37,433 nucleotides of DNA from a virus. The notes under the pieces were generated by a model that had not been told where the DNA came from, did no database searches, and saw only the letters and a program-made list of their open reading frames with translations. A program made the translations under genes and the position numbers. Below, in pieces: positions 5,952-37,433 of this stretch. Positions within the stretch are counted from its first letter, which is position 1. Each line of letters starts with the position of its first letter. The DNA lies in IMG/VR virus record IMGVR_UViG_3300025853_000014, positions 1 through 37,433 of that record; one strand, 5' to 3'.

Positions 5952-6009
5952 ACCCAAAAAATCTATAGGGGGTACTTTAATTAAAAAATTCATAGGGGGT
6001 CAGCAGCCC
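5929..6009 (+). repeat. Three tandem 27-base repeats ending in the terminator
   Basis: Copies begin at 5929, 5956 and 5983; each starts AAAAAATTCATAGGGGG or a close variant. The first copy overlaps the end of the HNH gene and encodes KIHRGN; the next two, read in the same frame, would encode KIYRG and KIHRG but are separated by stop codons. The third copy supplies the left arm of the terminator hairpin. Confidence 0.85.
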
Positions 6010-6017
6010 CCTTTTTT
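5995..6017 (+). terminator. Rho-independent terminator after the replication operon
   Basis: GGGGG (5995-5999), a seven-base loop, CCCCC (6007-6011), then six T. This is a strong intrinsic terminator and separates the replication operon from the next promoter at 6119-6152. Confidence 0.9.
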
Positions 6018-6027
6018 CGTTGCCTGG

Positions 6028-6143
6028 TGTCGAAATGGTGTCACCTATTTTTGATCCTGTCCAGGTTGTCTGCAATTATTTATTGCCTCATTTCGTGACA
6101 TAAATATGACAATTTTTTTTGTGGTGGTGTCAATATGATGTCG
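6028..6143. promoter_or_regulatory. Cluster of three operator-like direct repeats
   Basis: Three copies of the 5-N6-5 pattern lie within 116 bases: 6028-6043 (TGTCG-N6-TGTCA), 6096-6111 (TGACA-N6-TGACA, opposite orientation) and 6128-6143 (TGTCA-N6-TGTCG). The last one lies inside the spacer between the -33 and -7 boxes of the promoter 6119-6152, so a bound protein would block or remodel that promoter. This is the densest cluster in the genome. Further GTC-containing words lie between the sites, so the region may be a control point or, less likely, an iteron-type origin. Confidence 0.6.
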
Positions 6144-6152
6144 TTATCTTTG
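6119..6152 (+). promoter_or_regulatory. Bacteroidota-type promoter of the 6172-7590 operon
   Basis: TTG at 6119-6121 and TATCTTTG at 6145-6152 match the -33 TTG and -7 TAnnTTTG elements of the Bacteroidota housekeeping sigma factor, with a 23-base spacer. Expected transcript start is near 6158, about 14 bases before the first gene. Confidence 0.7.
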
Positions 6153-6171
6153 TGCTAACAAAATGACAAAC

Positions 6172-6279
6172 ATGAAAAAAGAAACATTTACAATTTATGG
6201 AGCTTTACTAGGTTTAGCCCTTATCATTGGAACGTGTATAGCGTTCTATTTTTACAACATTCAAAACATGCCACAATGA
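6172..6279 (+). CDS. Tiny membrane protein, 35 aa
   Basis: ATG at 6172 opens 35 codons with one hydrophobic segment (IYGALLGLALIIGTCIAFYFY) after a Lys-rich N-terminus. It ends in an ATGA overlap with the next gene. It directly follows a strong promoter, so it is the first product of this operon. Function unknown; tiny early membrane proteins in phages may alter host membrane processes or block superinfection. Confidence 0.65.
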   Translation: MKKETFTIYGALLGLALIIGTCIAFYFYNIQNMPQ

Positions 6280-13298: not shown

Positions 13299-14029
13299 TG
13301 AGAGTCTTGGAATATGTTGAACAACACCCCGACTTTGCTCTAGGCAACTTTATACACCTCACCCCAACTCTGCGGTATCTGTCTGAGAAGAGGGGAATGA
13401 AGATTCCTGTCTTGTTTCGGACAGACTACGTTAAAGAGGCATTTCTTGATTGCCCGTTCATAGAGCATATTTACCGTCCGGGTAAAACCAGGATGTTTGG
13501 TAGTAACATAACCAATCAAGCGAACGACAGACCTGACTATGAATACATATTTCAGACCCTCACAGGTCGGATATGGAACAAATACTACCACACCTATGTA
13601 GATACCCCACCGCCCGTAGAAGAGGGCTTATATATCGTCATTGTGAATGGTGCGGGGAACACAAGTGAAAGATATGTTCAATCCAAAGACCCCGGTGCTA
13701 GTCCTTACATGATTGCTATGCAGAAATGTAGGACTATCGCTGTGGGTTCTCAAGAGGATTTTGATCGGTGTCCATACTTGTATGAGGCAGATAAGTTTGT
13801 GGTAGGAGATATGCGGTTAGCTTTATCTTACATACATGGTGCTAGAGCTGTTATTGCAAACGATACGGGGCTTTATCATGCTGCGGGTGCTATGAATGTG
13901 CCTACCCTTGCCTTGTGGAAAAATACGCTTAAAGAGCGGTGCAAGAATGCGGGAGTAAACACAGAGTATGCTTACGAGAATCACGACCTTGCTGTTGACA
14001 GATTCCTTACCAAACACTTATATATATAG
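13298..14029 (+). CDS. Glycosyltransferase, GT9/heptosyltransferase-like
   Basis: A 243-residue protein. HPDFALGNFIHLTPTLRYL at the N-terminus and AVIANDTGLYHAAGAMNVPTLALW near residue 200 match the first loop and the donor-binding motif of GT9 ADP-heptose:LPS heptosyltransferases. The start ATG at 13298 overlaps the previous stop (TAATG). The protein is shorter than bacterial GT9 enzymes, so a middle segment is reduced. Likely role: adding a sugar to a virion protein or altering a host glycan. Confidence 0.72.
   Translation: MRVLEYVEQHPDFALGNFIHLTPTLRYLSEKRGMKIPVLFRTDYVKEAFLDCPFIEHIYRPGKTRMFGSNITNQANDRPDYEYIFQTLTGRIWNKYYHTYVDTPPPVEEGLYIVIVNGAGNTSERYVQSKDPGASPYMIAMQKCRTIAVGSQEDFDRCPYLYEADKFVVGDMRLALSYIHGARAVIANDTGLYHAAGAMNVPTLALWKNTLKERCKNAGVNTEYAYENHDLAVDRFLTKHLYI
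13995..14023 (+). promoter_or_regulatory. Late promoter candidate a
   Basis: TTGACA at 13995-14000, 17-base spacer ending ACAC, TTATAT at 14018-14023. The gene at 14033 follows by nine bases. Best -35 match of the family. Confidence 0.65.
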
Positions 14030-14032
14030 AAG

Positions 14033-14371
14033 ATGATATTAACAGGTGGATTCATTAATTTCACACGTTGGCTTAAAGATCATAGCGCACAGGTTACTGT
14101 GGAGACTAACGAACTATCTACGTCCACTAAGCGAGAGCTTGGGGAACTTGGTGGGGAGTTTGTGTATTTCGCTATCAAGAAAGAGCCTTTTACCGCTACT
14201 GAACTTGAGGACTTGGATAAGCTCAAAGCTAGAACTGCCAAGACTAAATCCCTCAAGCTACGACAAACCATATTCCGACTATGGGAGTCTAGGGGTAGTG
14301 AGGGTTCATTCGATGAGTTCTATGCCGACAGAATGGATGAGATACTACATCAAGTAAGGGAACTAATATGA
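14033..14371 (+). CDS. Hypothetical protein before the small terminase, 112 aa
   Basis: A 112-residue soluble protein with a beta-rich N-terminal half (VTVETNELSTS, GGEFVYFAIKKEPF) and a helical C-terminus (SLKLRQTIFRLWESR, then DEFYADRMDEILHQVRELI). It is coupled to the small terminase gene by ATGA at 14368. It is the first gene after late promoter a. No family recognised; a packaging accessory role is plausible from position. Confidence 0.65.
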   Translation: MILTGGFINFTRWLKDHSAQVTVETNELSTSTKRELGELGGEFVYFAIKKEPFTATELEDLDKLKARTAKTKSLKLRQTIFRLWESRGSEGSFDEFYADRMDEILHQVRELI

Positions 14372-17264: not shown

Positions 17265-17845
17265 AAACTTGGAACGACATAACGATTGAGAAAGCAGAGG
17301 CTATCTTCTCTGCTGCTGAGAAACACGAACATCCAATAGCTAAACGTGCAGCTATTTACGCTGCTGCTATGGGTGAGGACTTTGACAAGCTATACAATAT
17401 GGGGTTGTCCGACTTTGAGTCTTACACGAAGGAATGGCGATTCCTAGACACCTCTCCGAGTAAGAAAGTGCCGAAAGAGTGGGATGGTTATGAGTTGACA
17501 GGTGATATTAAGGATCTGTCTGCTGGGCAACTTGTCGATATAGAGACTACCACTAAAGACGGTAAGAACACCCTGCATAGGGTTATGGCTCTCTTGTGGA
17601 AGAAAGATATGCCGCTTGACGAGAAGGAGAAGTATGTCAGGGAGAATATGCCTTACCCGATTGCTCGTGGAGTGCATGATTTTTTTTTGCGACGTTCGCT
17701 TCGTCTGCAAAGTCGTTTAGTAAGATATTTGGCTCTAAGGATGCGGACTCAACTGATGAAGCTCCGCCTTCAAATAGCTTTGGACAAGTTTTTCGGTGGT
17801 TTTCGTGGTTCAAGAAAATCGCGCAAACGTACAACTGCCGAATAG
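17261..17845 (+). CDS. Tail assembly chaperone, short (unshifted) form
   Basis: The 194-residue product of normal reading. The first 142 residues are helical and acidic (TIEKAEAIFSAAEKHEHPIAKRAAIYAAAMG, LSDFESYTKEW...EKYVRENMPYPIARGVHDFF). After the T-run at 17680-17688 the unshifted frame gives a Leu/Arg-rich sequence (RRSLRLQSRLVRYLAL) that looks like out-of-frame translation. The likely working long form is made by a -1 frameshift (next entry). In long-tailed phages such gene pairs encode the chaperones that coat the tape measure. The unshifted form could end here by chance. Confidence 0.6.
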   Translation: MKTWNDITIEKAEAIFSAAEKHEHPIAKRAAIYAAAMGEDFDKLYNMGLSDFESYTKEWRFLDTSPSKKVPKEWDGYELTGDIKDLSAGQLVDIETTTKDGKNTLHRVMALLWKKDMPLDEKEKYVRENMPYPIARGVHDFFLRRSLRLQSRLVRYLALRMRTQLMKLRLQIALDKFFGGFRGSRKSRKRTTAE

Positions 17846-17946
17846 ATGAGGTGTATGAGATGAAGGCACTAGAGTTTTTAAATTGGATCAACTACGAAAT
17901 ACACTTAGCGGAGGAAGAAGAAAGACGTGCCAAACAATCTCGATAA
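17261..17946 (+). CDS. Tail assembly chaperone, frameshift fusion, 228 aa
   Basis: If ribosomes slip back one base on T TTT TTT at 17680-17686, the product continues as FFFATFASSAKSFSKIFGSK, a linker (DADSTDEAPPSNSFGQ), then VFRWFSWFKKIAQTYNCRIDEVYEMKALEFLNWINYEIHLAEEEERR and stops at 17944-17946. The new C-terminus looks like real protein, and its length and charge pattern resemble the GT part of G/GT chaperones. The next gene starts within it, at 17927. A homopolymer sequencing error would give the same picture, so read support is needed. Confidence 0.65.
17680..17688 (+). other. Slippery T-run for -1 frameshifting
   Basis: Nine T in a row. In the zero frame they read GAT TTT TTT TTG; after a -1 slip on TTT TTT they lead into GCG ACG TTC and an open frame to 17946. 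The heptamer T TTT TTT fits the X XXY YYZ rule for tandem slippage. Confidence 0.7.
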
Positions 17947-18517
17947 TCTACACAAGTATCTCTCAGAGGCTATTGACGATGCCTTAGAGCGTGTTTCTCA
18001 TAATCTAGCCACAATGAAGGATAGCCGGGGTAATTCCCGTAGGGCTAGTGGTCGAACTGCCGAGAAGGTAATCTCCTACAATAATCGTGCGGTCAAGAGA
18101 AAGAAAGCGCAAATTAACGTAGATGTCACGATGCCTTCTCACTTGAAGTTCATCGACGAAGGTATTAAGGGTAGAGATTCTGTCAAGCCACACACAGGTT
18201 CTAGCCCGTTCCGTCAGAGGCGTATGCCGAACATTAATGCTATTTCCCGTTGGATCAGAGACGCGGGTTTATCTACCCCTGCCAAGTTTAAGAATCGTAG
18301 ACGTTTTGCCGGGGCTATTGCTGCGGGAATATTGAAACAAGGTATTGAGGCTGTGCCTGTTTACTCAAGCGTGTTCAACATGACGTTCTACGAGCAACTA
18401 GAAGAAGATCTTGCTAATATTGCTGCCCGTGATTGGGAAGGAGATATAGATGAAATGATCGAGAAAATGGTGGTGAATCTACAAGCCACCGGAATTGATG
18501 TGAGGTACAAACTTTAA
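17927..18517 (+). CDS. Putative tail completion / virion morphogenesis protein
   Basis: A 196-residue basic protein starting at GTG 17927, overlapping the chaperone fusion by 20 bases. It has a helical N-terminus, then RTAEKVISYNNRAVKRKKAQINVDVTMP, KFIDEGIKGRDSVKPHTGS and a helical C-terminus. The sequence style resembles HK97 gp10-type or other neck/tail-completion proteins of siphoviruses. The location after the tail chaperones and before the tail tip genes supports a tail role; exact family not certain. Confidence 0.5.
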   Translation: MPNNLDNLHKYLSEAIDDALERVSHNLATMKDSRGNSRRASGRTAEKVISYNNRAVKRKKAQINVDVTMPSHLKFIDEGIKGRDSVKPHTGSSPFRQRRMPNINAISRWIRDAGLSTPAKFKNRRRFAGAIAAGILKQGIEAVPVYSSVFNMTFYEQLEEDLANIAARDWEGDIDEMIEKMVVNLQATGIDVRYKL

Positions 18518-18732
18518 TCCCTCACCGTGCGAATTGTCTTGATGTTCGTGACTTCCCATTTGTCGAGTTGACCTTTCTTGCCTGACTTAGCGAATGCGTA
18601 TTCAAGCACCTTATCCTTATTGGCGAGTACTTCCTTCTCGTCTTTGGATGTTACTAGGGTGACGAGCAATGATGTTTTACCCGTACCTTTCTTCACCTTC
18701 TTGTGAAACCTTATTTCGTATTCGTAGAGCAT
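18514..18732 (-). CDS. Hypothetical protein, 72 aa (leftward cassette)
   Basis: A 72-residue basic protein: MLYEYEIRFHKKVKKGTGKTSLLVTLVTSKDEKEV with two strands, then a helix and a final strand. It is the last gene of a leftward cassette inside the otherwise rightward late region, and converges with the tail completion gene with a four-base overlap. No family recognised. The GTGKTS stretch looks like a Walker A fragment but lacks the rest of a P-loop protein. Confidence 0.6.
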   Translation of the reverse strand: MLYEYEIRFHKKVKKGTGKTSLLVTLVTSKDEKEVLANKDKVLEYAFAKSGKKGQLDKWEVTNIKTIRTVRD

Positions 18733-18733
18733 A

Positions 18734-18991
18734 TTATTCAAATACTATGTCATAAGACGCAATCATTTTATCTAAATCGACACGCCTAAAATTAATAATA
18801 AATCCCATATCTGCTAGTGTAATGAAATCCCCCTCATTAAACACAAATTCCAAATCTTTCTCTATGACAAGCAAGTCATTAAATATCCCACCAACCTCAA
18901 ACCCATTCGCATAAAGCTGCTGCAAATCCTCATCATTTACCTGTTTGTCATCCAACACATCGCTAAAAGGTATTACAAATCTTGATTTCAT
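18734..18991 (-). CDS. Hypothetical acidic protein, 85 aa (leftward cassette)
   Basis: An acidic 85-residue protein (LDDKQVNDEDLQQLYANG; FVFNEGDFITLADMGFII) starting at the ATG at 18991. Two operator-like sites lie about 50-100 bases upstream at 19041-19088, and a promoter-like box TTACTTTG reads leftward at 19020-19013. No family recognised. Confidence 0.6.
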   Translation of the reverse strand: MKSRFVIPFSDVLDDKQVNDEDLQQLYANGFEVGGIFNDLLVIEKDLEFVFNEGDFITLADMGFIINFRRVDLDKMIASYDIVFE

Positions 18992-19012
18992 AATGTTGTT
19001 TTTTATTGGGTT

Positions 19013-19020
19013 CAAAGTAA
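19013..19020 (-). promoter_or_regulatory. Candidate -7 box for the 18991 gene
   Basis: Reads TTACTTTG on the minus strand, the same variant as at 2266-2273 before the replication operon; each lies downstream of TGACA-N6-TGACA-type sites. One mismatch to TAnnTTTG and no clear -33 element, so it is tentative. Confidence 0.35.
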
Positions 19021-19029
19021 GTGGCTAAA

Positions 19030-19092
19030 CAACACTATTGTATCATAGAAGTGTCATAAAACAACACTATTGTGTCATAGAATTGTCATAAA
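19030..19092. repeat. Two tandem 32-base repeats carrying operator-like sites
   Basis: Copies begin CAACACTATTGT at 19030 and 19062. Each holds one 5-N6-5 site: 19041-19056 (TATCA-N6-TGTCA) and 19073-19088 (TGTCA-N6-TGTCA). The duplication gives two operators in register upstream of the 18991 gene; the second overlaps the stop codon of the VRR-NUC gene. Confidence 0.75.
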
Positions 19093-19350
19093 CTCTTCAA
19101 GTGTGTGTATTACTGCGTATTGCCCTTTCCACTTGTCCTGGAACTCAATCTCGTCAGTTGTGAGTTTGCGTTGACTAGGTGGCTTATCGGGATCTTTAAT
19201 CTCAAGAAGGTAGTTGACCCCACGATACCCTACGACAATATCCGGGAATCCACTACCTAACTGAGACGTTATTGCGACACTACAGCCTATGCTGCGTAAT
19301 TCTTTGACAAGCTGACGTTGGTTGCTATCAACCCTTCCTCGCTTTCTCAC
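19075..19350 (-). CDS. VRR-NUC type nuclease, 91 aa
   Basis: Starting at GTG 19350 the protein reads VRKRGRVDSNQRQLVKELRSIG, then SGFPDIVVGYRG with Asp37, YLLEIKD with Glu50 and Lys52, then LTTDEIEFQDKWKGQYAVIHTLEEF. That is the whole catalytic core of the small phage VRR-NUC (PD-(D/E)XK) family, which cleaves branched or structured DNA. A TTG at 19368 would add six codons, but these overlap the promoter box and are not needed. First gene of the leftward cassette. Confidence 0.78.
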   Translation of the reverse strand: MRKRGRVDSNQRQLVKELRSIGCSVAITSQLGSGFPDIVVGYRGVNYLLEIKDPDKPPSQRKLTTDEIEFQDKWKGQYAVIHTLEEFMTIL

Positions 19351-19379
19351 TTGACAAATATACAACAAAACACTTATAT
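19351..19379 (+). promoter_or_regulatory. Late promoter candidate f, before a noncoding region
   Basis: TTGACA at 19351-19356, 17-base spacer ending ACAC, TTATAT at 19374-19379. The predicted start near 19386 has no gene until 19734, so this promoter would make the structured noncoding transcript. Its -35 overlaps the leftward -7 box at 19355-19362. Confidence 0.6.
19355..19362 (-). promoter_or_regulatory. -7 box for the VRR-NUC gene
   Basis: Reads TATATTTG on the minus strand, a full match to TAnnTTTG. The transcript start would be at or next to the GTG at 19350, that is a leaderless mRNA. Confidence 0.55.
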
Positions 19380-19385
19380 AAGTAC

Positions 19386-19718
19386 AGATTATTTAGAAAT
19401 TAGTGTATATTTGCATAAATAGGCTCGTAGTCGTTCCATCCGAAGCGACAATAAAAAATCGGAATACAAGAAACACGAGATAGGTAGAAGCATCTACTCA
19501 GGGTGAGGGCGAGGAGCAATGCTACGGCAGCAACTCCAAGGTCATCTAAGTAAGTCTAAGCCCACAGAGTAACGTCAAAGAGAGAGGGGAGAGGTAAGCC
19601 CCGATCCACCTAGAAGGTATGACCTACGAATTGTTGCTTTTGCTCGACACCTGTAACGGGTGTACAGGCTCTCGGTAGAGATGACCTATAAGCCGAGCTG
19701 CACAAATTTCCGTCTTAA
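19386..19718 (+). ncRNA. Candidate structured noncoding RNA, about 330 nt
   Basis: No gene lies here, yet the stretch follows late promoter f and contains many short, well-formed hairpins in the sense strand: GTAGA 19484-19488 with TCTAC 19493-19497; GGAG 19513-19516 plus TGCT 19520-19523 with AGCA 19529-19532 plus CTCC 19534-19537; GGGG 19586-19589 with CCCC 19599-19602; ACACC 19647-19651 with GGTGT 19659-19663; CAG plus CTCGG 19665-19675 with CCGAG plus CTG 19693-19700. A host-type box TATATTTG at 19406-19413 is a possible second start. GGCTCG at 19422-19427 could pair with CGAGCT at 19694-19699 and compete with the last hairpin. I do not recognise the family; it could also be a long 5' leader for the tail gene. 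Confidence 0.5.
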
Positions 19719-19727
19719 CACTTATAT
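19699..19727 (+). promoter_or_regulatory. Late promoter candidate b, tail gene
   Basis: TGCACA at 19699-19704 (weak -35), 17-base spacer ending ACAC, TTATAT at 19722-19727. Seven bases after the -10 lies 19734, the A of the start codon of the tail gene. Confidence 0.6.
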
Positions 19728-19733
19728 ATATGT

Positions 19734-21086
19734 ATGGCACTCACAGTTCAGACAGATGTAAGTGGGAACGTAATTTACCCTTCCTACAACCCGATAAGGT
19801 TCGGGGTCGAATCCTCAAGCACTTCCGAGGACAACTACAAGACAATCGTTTATATTCATCGCGATCCGTCAGGAGATGACGAGAAGGTAGCGGAATTGCG
19901 GTATGACATAAGACCTAGCACGAATGCGGTTCTAGTGGACGTAAGTAAGATCACACAAAGTTTCGTAAGCACAGACATTGCTAATGTAGTGGCTGAGACT
20001 GTAGGCGGGGCAACAGAGTCTAGTGACTACGAGGAATGGAAGGTAGCGTTCCAAGAGTACTTTGGGGCTATCCCGGCAGCAACAGGTAGCGTGGTGAGTG
20101 GCACTACTTTCTACACTTGCAACGGGGCATTCAGATTTGAAGAGTGGAAAGACTACAACTACTACGCATCTGAGGGTAATTGGGTAGTGTTAGCAGATGA
20201 CACGGCAGCAAGTATTGTGAGCAGCAATATATGGATGCACGATTGGGGTAACGTACACACTACCTCAACAGGCGCTACAGGGTTAGAGGCTAGTTCTCTC
20301 ACCCGAGACCTAAATTGGCTACCTATCCAAGCGGGGCAATACCTCCCTATACGATGGAGGAAGTCGGACTACACCGAGGGTGGTATATACATAAACCTGT
20401 ATGACGAGAACTTTAGCCTAAACCACCAAGACGGAGTAGATTGGATAAATGCTCCGAGCGAGTACTGTGTGCGCTCTATGAATGTCGGTACGGACGAATT
20501 GAACGCTACAGCGGGTATAACGTTCACGGTAAACACAGATGATAAGTACATGGCTGTTTGTTGGTATGATCCTGACGATTCCGGTGGTGGCGCAGCAATA
20601 AGACGAGGAAGCAATTTCTTGTTGTATGAGATTGACCACACACCTTGCGACACGTACACGAATTACGAGATCCTGTGGCTAAACCGATTGGGTGGCATTG
20701 ATTCCTATGTGTTCACAGGAAGACCATATAAGAACTATGAGTGGGAGAATAGTCGGTATATGAGGAATACAGTATCAATCAACACAGATGGTTCTACTAT
20801 TACTGATAATCTACACGCTAGGAAGATGGGTACAGACTCTACCCGAACGAAGAGAAAGTACAAAGTGAATAGCCGAATAATCCCTGCATGGATGGCAGAG
20901 GGGTTCGCTGACCTATTCTCTAGCCCTATGGTTTGGTGGAGGCGCACAACCGAAACGAGCAACCAGCTTATTCAGATTGTGCCGCAAGGAAGTATGTACG
21001 AAGTGAAGAACTCGGTAGGAGACAAAGCATTCAACATTGAACTCGATTTTGTAATAGATAGCAAAGACGTAAGACAGAGAGGATGA
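19734..21086 (+). CDS. Putative distal tail protein, 450 aa
   Basis: A 450-residue beta-rich protein with few charged helices (RFGVESSSTSEDN, YIHRDPSG, NYEILWLNRLGGIDSYVFTG, NIELDFVIDSKDV). The LWLNRLGG...YVFTG stretch is, as I recall, seen in tail proteins of Bacteroidota phages. It is followed with ATGA overlap by a large tail tip protein. Role by position: distal tail or baseplate hub component. Start at 19734 is fixed by late promoter b, probably leaderless. Confidence 0.6.
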   Translation: MALTVQTDVSGNVIYPSYNPIRFGVESSSTSEDNYKTIVYIHRDPSGDDEKVAELRYDIRPSTNAVLVDVSKITQSFVSTDIANVVAETVGGATESSDYEEWKVAFQEYFGAIPAATGSVVSGTTFYTCNGAFRFEEWKDYNYYASEGNWVVLADDTAASIVSSNIWMHDWGNVHTTSTGATGLEASSLTRDLNWLPIQAGQYLPIRWRKSDYTEGGIYINLYDENFSLNHQDGVDWINAPSEYCVRSMNVGTDELNATAGITFTVNTDDKYMAVCWYDPDDSGGGAAIRRGSNFLLYEIDHTPCDTYTNYEILWLNRLGGIDSYVFTGRPYKNYEWENSRYMRNTVSINTDGSTITDNLHARKMGTDSTRTKRKYKVNSRIIPAWMAEGFADLFSSPMVWWRRTTETSNQLIQIVPQGSMYEVKNSVGDKAFNIELDFVIDSKDVRQRG

Positions 21087-25804: not shown

Positions 25805-26425
25805 ATGGACAATATACCAATTTTCGACATTGTATTTGATGAGGTGAATGGTGGAGTAAATACTGTGAGTCTCGTTTCTAGCCCTGCTATGGAGAGCGCA
25901 TGGTTGGCATTTAATCACAGCACAGCTCAATACAAACTGCAATCAGAGGAGAAACGCTTAATCTTAGGAGCGTTACTGATTCCCGACAAGCTGGTTCTTA
26001 GACGAGACGATTCGGGCAACCCGTTCTTCATACGCTTTAGTAAGGATGTAATCGAGAAGACTGTCTACAAGTACTTCAAGACATCTAAGACAAACAACAC
26101 GAATGCGGAGCATGACCAGGAGTGGACACTTGACGGTGTTTATATGGTAAGCTCTTTCATTAAGGATAGCTCTATGGGTATCAATCCTCCTGTGGAACTT
26201 CAAGATCACCCGGACGGGACTTGGTTCGGAATGTTCAGAGTAGAGGATGATGAGGTTTGGGAAAGATACATCAAGGAAGGCGTATTCACAGGGTTCAGCA
26301 TTGAGGGCATCTACTCTCTAGCAGACACGGGCGAGTCCGCATCGTTGGCAATGAGCAAGGAGGATAAGGAGCTAGAAGAACTAGCTGATATGATCTTGAG
26401 CAAATTAGACACTTTAGTAGACTAA
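25805..26425 (+). CDS. Prohead protease, XkdF-like (Peptidase_S78_2 type)
   Basis: A 206-residue protein: VSSPAMESAWLAF, then LILGALLIPDKLVLRRDDSGNPFFIRFSKDVIEK, NAEHDQEW, VYMVSSFIKDSSMG, PDGTWFGMFRVEDDEVWERYIKEGVFTGFSIEG. This sequence order matches XkdF-like proteins, small serine-protease-like head maturation proteases. The HD in NAEHD fits the conserved His. It lies before the scaffold and capsid genes, as expected for a maturation protease. Confidence 0.75.
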   Translation: MDNIPIFDIVFDEVNGGVNTVSLVSSPAMESAWLAFNHSTAQYKLQSEEKRLILGALLIPDKLVLRRDDSGNPFFIRFSKDVIEKTVYKYFKTSKTNNTNAEHDQEWTLDGVYMVSSFIKDSSMGINPPVELQDHPDGTWFGMFRVEDDEVWERYIKEGVFTGFSIEGIYSLADTGESASLAMSKEDKELEELADMILSKLDTLVD

Positions 26426-28329: not shown

Positions 28330-28352
28330 TCATCACTCTCATATATCGGTAG

Positions 28353-28381
28353 AAGCCCCTCTTTGGGGCTTTTACTTTTTT
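28353..28381 (+). terminator. Rho-independent terminator after capsid and tail tube genes
   Basis: AAGCCCC (28353-28359), loop, GGGGCTT (28365-28371), then a T-rich tract. It ends the transcript that begins at the scaffold or protease gene. Confidence 0.88.
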
Positions 28382-28408
28382 ATGACACTTCGTATTGTTT
28401 TTTGTTCG

Positions 28409-28416
28409 TATATTTG
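28409..28416 (+). promoter_or_regulatory. -7 box before the small noncoding RNA
   Basis: TATATTTG matches TAnnTTTG. There is no start codon with a good frame downstream before the terminator at 28530; the transcript would begin near 28422. Confidence 0.55.
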
Positions 28417-28421
28417 CGATA

Positions 28422-28558
28422 TAAAGTTATTTAAATCTAAGTTTTTAGGCGGGTATTAACGAATAACAAACTTGGGGAAGCGACTTATTTTTCACCACCC
28501 GCCAAAATATTGTTTCATGTTGTGTTTTGAGCCTCGGCAGAAATGTCGGGGCTTTTTT
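28422..28558 (+). ncRNA. Candidate small noncoding RNA with a pseudoknot, about 137 nt
   Basis: Between the box at 28409 and the terminator at 28530 no gene is present. GTTATT at 28426-28431 can pair with AATAAC at 28462-28467, and GGCGGGT at 28448-28454 with ACCCGCC at 28497-28503; their order on the strand (1-2-1-2) makes an H-type pseudoknot. A 9-base-pair hairpin with T-run closes it. Promoter, compact fold and terminator are what one expects for an independent RNA. Family not recognised. Confidence 0.6.
28530..28558 (+). terminator. Terminator of the small noncoding RNA
   Basis: AGCCTCGGC (28530-28538), six-base loop, GTCGGGGCT (28545-28553) with a T-G and a G-T pair, then T to 28558. 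It lies directly before late promoter e. Confidence 0.9.
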
Positions 28559-28587
28559 GTGACACTTTTGCCACTTAACACTTATAT
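28559..28587 (+). promoter_or_regulatory. Late promoter candidate e, before the portal gene
   Basis: GTGACA at 28559-28564, 17-base spacer ending ACAC, TTATAT at 28582-28587. The start codon A is at 28594, seven bases after the -10. The spacer end and the -10 region are nearly the same as in promoter b. Confidence 0.6.
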
Positions 28588-28593
28588 ATATGT

Positions 28594-37075: not shown

Positions 37076-37433
37076 TGCAACTGACCGACAACTTCAACAT
37101 ACGTGAGTTTTGCTGCAACGATGGCACTCGTATTCCACAGGAGTACATTGAGAATGTAATCGAACTAGCAGAGAACTTGCAAGTACTTCGAGATTATGCC
37201 GGCGCAGCAATAAGAGTCAATTCGGGCTATCGACACAGAGACTATAATACCAGGATAGGTGGAGCAAAGAACTCACAGCACCTATACGCTTGTGCAGCAG
37301 ACATTATAGTGGACGGGATGACCCCGCAAGAGGTAGCGGATTTGATTGAAGAGCTTATCTCGCAAGGCAAAATGAAGGAAGGTGGTTTAGGTCGGTACAA
37401 CACATTTACTCATTATGATATTCGAGGATATAA
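37075..37433 (+). CDS. M15-family peptidase endolysin, N-terminal part
   Basis: The gene starts at ATG 37075 (TAATG overlap) and continues across the circular junction to 140. In this part: a short helical N-terminus with two adjacent Cys (13, 14), SGYRHRDYNTRIGG, and SQHLYACAADI holding His69 and Asp76 of the zinc site. Completed protein 123 residues, a single catalytic domain with no cell-wall binding domain or signal peptide, so it needs the holin for release. Confidence 0.93.
   Translation, partial: MQLTDNFNIREFCCNDGTRIPQEYIENVIELAENLQVLRDYAGAAIRVNSGYRHRDYNTRIGGAKNSQHLYACAADIIVDGMTPQEVADLIEELISQGKMKEGGLGRYNTFTHYDIRGY
37307..37433. repeat. Terminal direct repeat, right copy
   Basis: Identical to positions 1-127. 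See the left copy: both ends lie within the endolysin gene and close the map at 37,306 bp. Confidence 0.93.

Follow-up and report, generated by a model that had tools for sequence, protein, structure and literature searches.

Phages encode free-standing structured RNAs, few of which have been assigned a role, and among Bacteroidota phages such RNAs seem, to our knowledge, little explored; a literature search found no study of one. The packaging RNA (pRNA) of the tailed phage phi29 is a phage-encoded structured RNA used by the phi29 type of terminase. The put RNA of phage HK022, about 65-75 nt long, is a structured RNA lying directly behind its promoter with genes downstream, and ToxI, the antitoxin RNA of type III systems, contains an H-type pseudoknot. 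ROOL RNAs are larger than the ~283 nt of the RNA described here. GOLLD, often longer than 800 nt, and ROOL are presented as free-standing, pseudoknotted RNAs of phages and prophages, and the cited text gives them no known function (PMC12286853).

The RNA proposed here shares features with each of these systems and matches none of them. It resembles ROOL and GOLLD as a predicted free-standing, pseudoknotted phage RNA, pRNA in being encoded by a tailed phage, put in its position behind a promoter and ToxI in its H-type pseudoknot. Rfam, searched at the gathering score and at E up to 10 with the window and with the corresponding region of a related contig (L003), returned no known family, ROOL, GOLLD and packaging RNA included. 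ARAGORN found no tRNA and no tmRNA in the window, and the promoter is of the Bacteroidota type, which also separates the RNA from ROOL and GOLLD. It differs from pRNA in that its phage has a large terminase subunit of the Terminase_3 type, and from put in being much larger, in having a terminal closing stem and in preceding different genes in two phages. Unlike ToxI, it contains no tandem repeats (none at score 30), and no toxin gene was recognised among the window proteins scanned. The literature search yielded no description of this RNA, which on sequence comparison is unrelated to described phage RNAs and is a predicted orphan structured phage RNA.

The window, by which the whole analysed stretch is meant, is IMG/VR virus record IMGVR_UViG_3300025853_000014, 37,433 bases long. 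It carries a 127-base direct terminal repeat and, on that basis, is probably a complete genome. The repeat occupies positions 1-127 and 37307-37433, and a 147-codon open frame spans the joined ends. Genes for portal, large terminase (Terminase_3, PF04466, E 9e-23), tape-measure and tail-fibre proteins are present. The portal protein has distant relatives (27%) in the Nonlabens phages P12024S and P12024L, and the window contains promoter-like TAnnTTTG elements; together these point to a host among the Bacteroidota.

A first-pass annotation had picked out a noncoding region of 330 bases (19386-19718) as the longest gene-free stretch of a densely packed genome. Both descriptions hold under the present gene list, which covers 92.7% of the window and puts the gap at 19369-19733 (365 nt): the runner-up internal stretch measures 282 nt (5952-6233), and the 358 nt at 37076-37433 are not gene-free, since the 147-codon frame crosses the terminal repeat. 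No open reading frame of at least 50 aa was found inside the gap, which is overlapped only by frames of 20-49 aa. To its left lies an endonuclease gene (19075-19368, minus strand, phrog_93 match), which we take to be a VRR-NUC gene. The gene to its right (19734-21086, plus strand) matched no family; it is named the first tail gene here on account of the tape-measure and tail-fibre genes that come after it. The RNA itself, ~283 nt with both ends predicted, would occupy 19418-19700 on the plus strand, where G+C reaches 0.49 against 0.21-0.25 in the portions of the gap flanking it on either side. No intrinsic terminator was found between 18500 and 20000, so the 3' end must arise by processing or read-through.

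Promoters of Flavobacterium have a -7 element with the consensus TAHHTTTG, 4-5 nt from the transcription start, and only a weak -33 element (PMC6847099). The TATATTTG element at 19406-19413 (plus strand) fits this consensus, which places the RNA start near 19418. The element common to the window and L003 beside the RNA is TATATTTGCA, that is, TATATTTG in the window. The region had earlier been credited with a late promoter of its own, the motif AACACTTATATA. This motif does stand upstream of the RNA in the window (19369-19380, plus strand), but in L003 it occurs only before the tail gene and does not adjoin the RNA; the shared promoter element is TATATTTG instead. Exact copies of AACACTTATATA begin at 14013, 19369, 19717 and 28577 and a copy with one mismatch at 26425; with up to two mismatches, nine were found against 5.4 expected. 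Copies sit 17-20 nt ahead of the start codons at 14033, 19734, 26443 and 28594. With the one before the first tail gene (19717-19728, plus strand) the RNA region ends; it reads AACGCTTATATA in L003, and the motif is kept in this form in L039 too. The motif AACACTTATATA is probably a late promoter of the phage, placed near the start codon. A separate TATATTTG element (19362, minus strand) serves the divergent endonuclease gene, and beside it the palindrome ACTTATATAAGT, at about 19372-19383, may be an operator.

Relatives of the first tail protein were found encoded on five IMG/VR contigs. Three of them (L001, L002 and L004) span the gap, and all three agree with the window at 365 of 365 bases. 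L001 and L002 are strongly diverged from the window elsewhere, yet their identity reaches beyond the RNA, L001 showing no difference from 19136 to 19858; because the flanks are identical too, these near copies say nothing special about the RNA. At about 18600-19860, L001 and L002 have a block of complete or nearly complete identity, which lies between strongly diverged segments (17350-18150 and beyond 20960). On this pattern the genomes may be read as mosaics that have in common the block surrounding the RNA.

The tail protein of L003 is 76% identical to that of the window (alignment A2; 74% in the best tblastn segment), and a homologue of the RNA lies in its corresponding gap, flanked by the same two genes, on the minus strand from about 1386 down to 1040. 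There TATATTTGCACAAAA is followed by sequence aligning with the window RNA; the alignment scores 67, and none of 200 shuffles exceeds 36. L003 thus has the promoter-like element together with the 5' part of the RNA, both inverted and facing the endonuclease side. The inversion, which rests on a single contig where an assembly error is possible, speaks for an RNA whose action does not depend on its neighbours and against a switch or leader of the adjacent gene. In the distant phage P12024S the gap adjoining the presumed counterpart gene separates divergent genes by only 65 nt and leaves no room for such an RNA; ready loss in related phages, which the first-pass annotation would have counted against a functional RNA, is thus seen in part.

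Both RNAs, from promoter to 3' tail, were aligned with MAFFT (alignment A6); the alignment is structure-blind, its ends are not, as they were picked after other cuts had misaligned the 3' tail. Among its ungapped columns 166 are identical and 116 differ. All stems of at least four Watson-Crick pairs formed by both sequences in the same columns were listed, which gave eight shared stems. Two or more compensated pairs occur in three of them: pseudoknot stem S2, the long-range helix P4 and the inner of the two P3 stems. Next on the list comes the pairing of the P3 loop with the 3' tail. The total of eight compensated Watson-Crick pairs was equalled in 6 of 3000 column shuffles and the shared stem of 8 bp in 1 of 3000, figures to be read with the understanding that column shuffles break neighbour effects and that two independent sequences amount to one evolutionary comparison. 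Over the whole named structure of 28 pairs, 55 of 55 countable cells are paired, with both partners altered in nine pairs and a single partner altered in none, a count that is partly circular as the structure was derived from the same two sequences; with the partners slid by 1-3 columns, 22-44% are paired. An earlier test with G-U pairs allowed, on two other alignments, had a weaker outcome: it gave an 8-bp stem with two compensations in 5 and 9 of 1000 shuffles, and the number of stems with at least two compensations was matched in 14 and 88 of 1000. A stem with three compensations, however, appeared in 319 and 399 of 1000. These comparisons support a shared RNA structure, short of proof. The earlier suggestion of a structured RNA gains from the compensated changes between two divergent homologues, and the absence of covariation, named beforehand as counting against it, was not observed.

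The predicted parts, all on the plus strand, begin with P1, in which GGCTCG (19422-19427) pairs with CGAGCT (19694-19699) to close the molecule; L003 can form GGCGTG/CACGCT, compared by hand as MAFFT shifts the 5' strand of P1. The pairing of GGCTCG at 19422 with the end of the region had been noticed before and taken for a switch between GGCTCG and CCGAG; the pairing stands, and it is better read as this closing stem. Next comes a 5' H-type pseudoknot formed by S1 (GTCG 19430-19433 with CGAC 19446-19449, identical in L003) and S2 (CCGA 19440-19443 with TCGG 19459-19462, spanning an A-rich loop), in which L003 has CTCG/CGAG and three of the four pairs are compensated. Hairpin P2 (GTAGA-AGCA-TCTAC, 19484-19497) appears in the forced fold described below and has a longer hairpin at a similar place in L003. 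The bulged hairpin P3 (19513-19537, loop ACGGC), with three compensated pairs across two stems, consists of an outer stem GGAG/CTCC (19513-19516 and 19534-19537) and an inner stem TGCT/AGCA (19520-19523 and 19529-19532), the latter TGTC/GACA in L003. Its loop bases CGGC (19525-19528) would pair with GCCG in the 3' tail (19692-19695), as TGGC does with GCCA in L003, one of the four pairs being compensated. Since this pairing overlaps the inner pairs of P1, at the first two bases of its 3' strand, either the bases are shared between the two pairings or only one of them can form at a time. Helix P4 joins AGGTCATCT (19539-19547) to AGATGACCT (19679-19687), 9 bp in the window, and the 8-bp stem common to both phages reads AGGTCATC/GATGACCT in the window and GGGTCATG/CATGACCC in L003, with two compensated pairs. 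Within the P4 domain a hairpin ACACCTG-TAA-CGGGTGT (19647-19663) is known from the window sequence and appears in the forced fold.

Folding energy gives a different picture. The minimum free energy of 19417-19730 has z = -0.69, with 24 of 100 shuffles as good, and that of 19418-19700 has z = -1.28, with 24 of 200 as good; the L003 relative scores -1.62 and the opposite strand of the window -0.93. With z-scores this weak, thermodynamic stability was rejected as proof of structure. The same result qualifies the short hairpins listed in the first-pass annotation, since GTAGA/TCTAC, GGAG/CTCC, GGGG/CCCC, ACCT/AGGT and ACACCTG/CGGGTGT are all present but the folding energy of the sequence is not beyond chance. 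When P1, S1, P3 and P4 are forced together, GTAGA/TCTAC, GGAG/CTCC and ACACCTG/CGGGTGT recur, at a cost of 5.3 and 4.3 kcal/mol over the minimum with pseudoknots uncredited. Nested folding gives P4 a probability of 0.06-0.11 and P1 in L003 about 0.02, so the conserved long helix P4 is not favoured thermodynamically.

The gap probably holds an autonomous structured RNA gene, judging from the sequence comparison, and the explanation that we consider best, with somewhat better than even confidence, is a free-standing RNA gene of ~283 nt whose product may be a trans-acting, protein-binding effector. The reading first given to the region, a regulatory leader or riboswitch of the tail genes, draws on the position of the RNA in the window, directly upstream of 19734 and in the same direction. 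In L003, however, the RNA in the same gap points away from the tail gene, and in both phages that gene has its own motif directly ahead of the start codon; the inversion favours an RNA independent of its neighbours, and a tail leader is very improbable. The best rival, though an unlikely one, is a cis-acting antiterminator in the manner of HK022 put, aiding transcription of any downstream operon, because no terminator sets the RNA apart from the codirectional genes after it in either phage (those of the tail operon in the window and those on the endonuclease side in L003). The RNA also lies directly behind its promoter, and nascent put RNA is described as suppressing pausing and termination (PMC9378689). 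Against this, an RNA of ~283 nt that has a closing stem and a long-range helix would be a large antiterminator, and the two phages would be applying it to quite different operons.

A role in the virion or in packaging, or assembly into particles, would suit a phage-encoded, pseudoknotted RNA of the late region, and the multi-pseudoknot phage RNAs ROOL and GOLLD are reported to form cages (PMC12286853). Such a role is nevertheless improbable for an RNA that is much smaller, has no Rfam match and belongs to a phage with no tRNA in the window and a Terminase_3-type, not phi29-type, large subunit. There is a similarly low probability that the gap is a DNA control region, with operators or an origin between divergent promoters, and that the resemblance to L003 is residual similarity with chance stems. 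That the gap parts divergent genes, with promoter-like motifs on both strands, and that single-sequence folding stays near the shuffles would agree with it, but against it stand compensated pairs in a structure-blind alignment in which no pair has changed on one side only, and P12024S copes with 65 nt between its divergent genes.

In the preferred reading, a free-standing RNA gene, host RNA polymerase would make the RNA from the TATATTTG element, and the transcript would be trimmed to the closing stem. It may then fold into a compact double-pseudoknot particle and might bind a host or phage protein in trans, for example one of defence, RNA decay or transcription. Action in trans, which we judge the likelier mode, would make it irrelevant which neighbour the RNA faces. 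Binding of a protein is favoured as the mode of action because of the size of the RNA, the lack of an ORF, the pseudoknots and the absence of clear antisense targets elsewhere in the phage, where the best antisense pairing is 14 nt and 3 of 100 shuffles reach that length; taken by itself, this mode is a tentative proposal that we hold at less than even confidence. More doubtful still, the RNA may represent a new class, a compact double-pseudoknot RNA of Bacteroidota phages acting in trans on a host protein during infection and carried as a small, self-contained cassette that can lie either way round between divergent operons. If it does bind a host protein, the phage would gain from neutralising or recruiting that protein. 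Its small size and its clear core, made up of the 5' pseudoknot, P3 and P4, make the RNA tractable for probing, for pulling down a partner and for deletion.

The searches for further members described here found none beyond the window type and L003. The strict pseudoknot pattern matched five stretches in IMG/VR, four of them known copies, the P3-P4 pattern six, four of them known, and the relaxed pseudoknot pattern 47; of 37 distinct sequence contexts examined, all but the window type and L003 lacked the combination of promoter element and P3 motif with the pseudoknot. Five candidates (L010, L035, L036, L042 and L043) were taken, on reading, as protein-coding chance matches. A covariance model (R1) built on the 5' part, run on the window and 40 of 86 loci, recovered only the window type and L003; the best other match (E 0.04), shared by L048 and the similar loci L058 and L084, falls within an ORF of L048. 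On six named phages (L041 being in both sets) the model reached a best E of 0.3, and P12024S and P12024L gave no credible match (best E 9.7). In GTDB genome contigs the pseudoknot pattern matched two stretches, both taken as chance, and alignment of the tail protein gave no matches. Similarity to the RNA was at chance level in plasmids and, by blastn, in named phages, where the best piece (L044) is a terminator-like hairpin, and protein-based scans added no further RNA members. RNase P (RF00010) was found in 11 of 14 control genomes and not in the window's record (0 of 1). Either the RNA is specific to its lineage, or it evolves too fast for the pattern, protein, blastn and covariance-model searches made.

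Gene-free gaps of 600-705 nt were seen in named Bacteroides and Parabacteroides gut phages (L087, 15126-15727; L088, 13149-13749; L089, 18366-19070), directly preceding the gene that comes before the large terminase; two of the three, inspected by eye, bear no resemblance to the RNA. The window itself contains a second gene-free stretch resembling a small RNA gene, at 28330-28593, with a TATATTTGC promoter element at 28409 and a GGCGGGT...ACCCGCC closing stem followed by a GC-rich hairpin with a T run; this stretch is 96.6% identical in L009.
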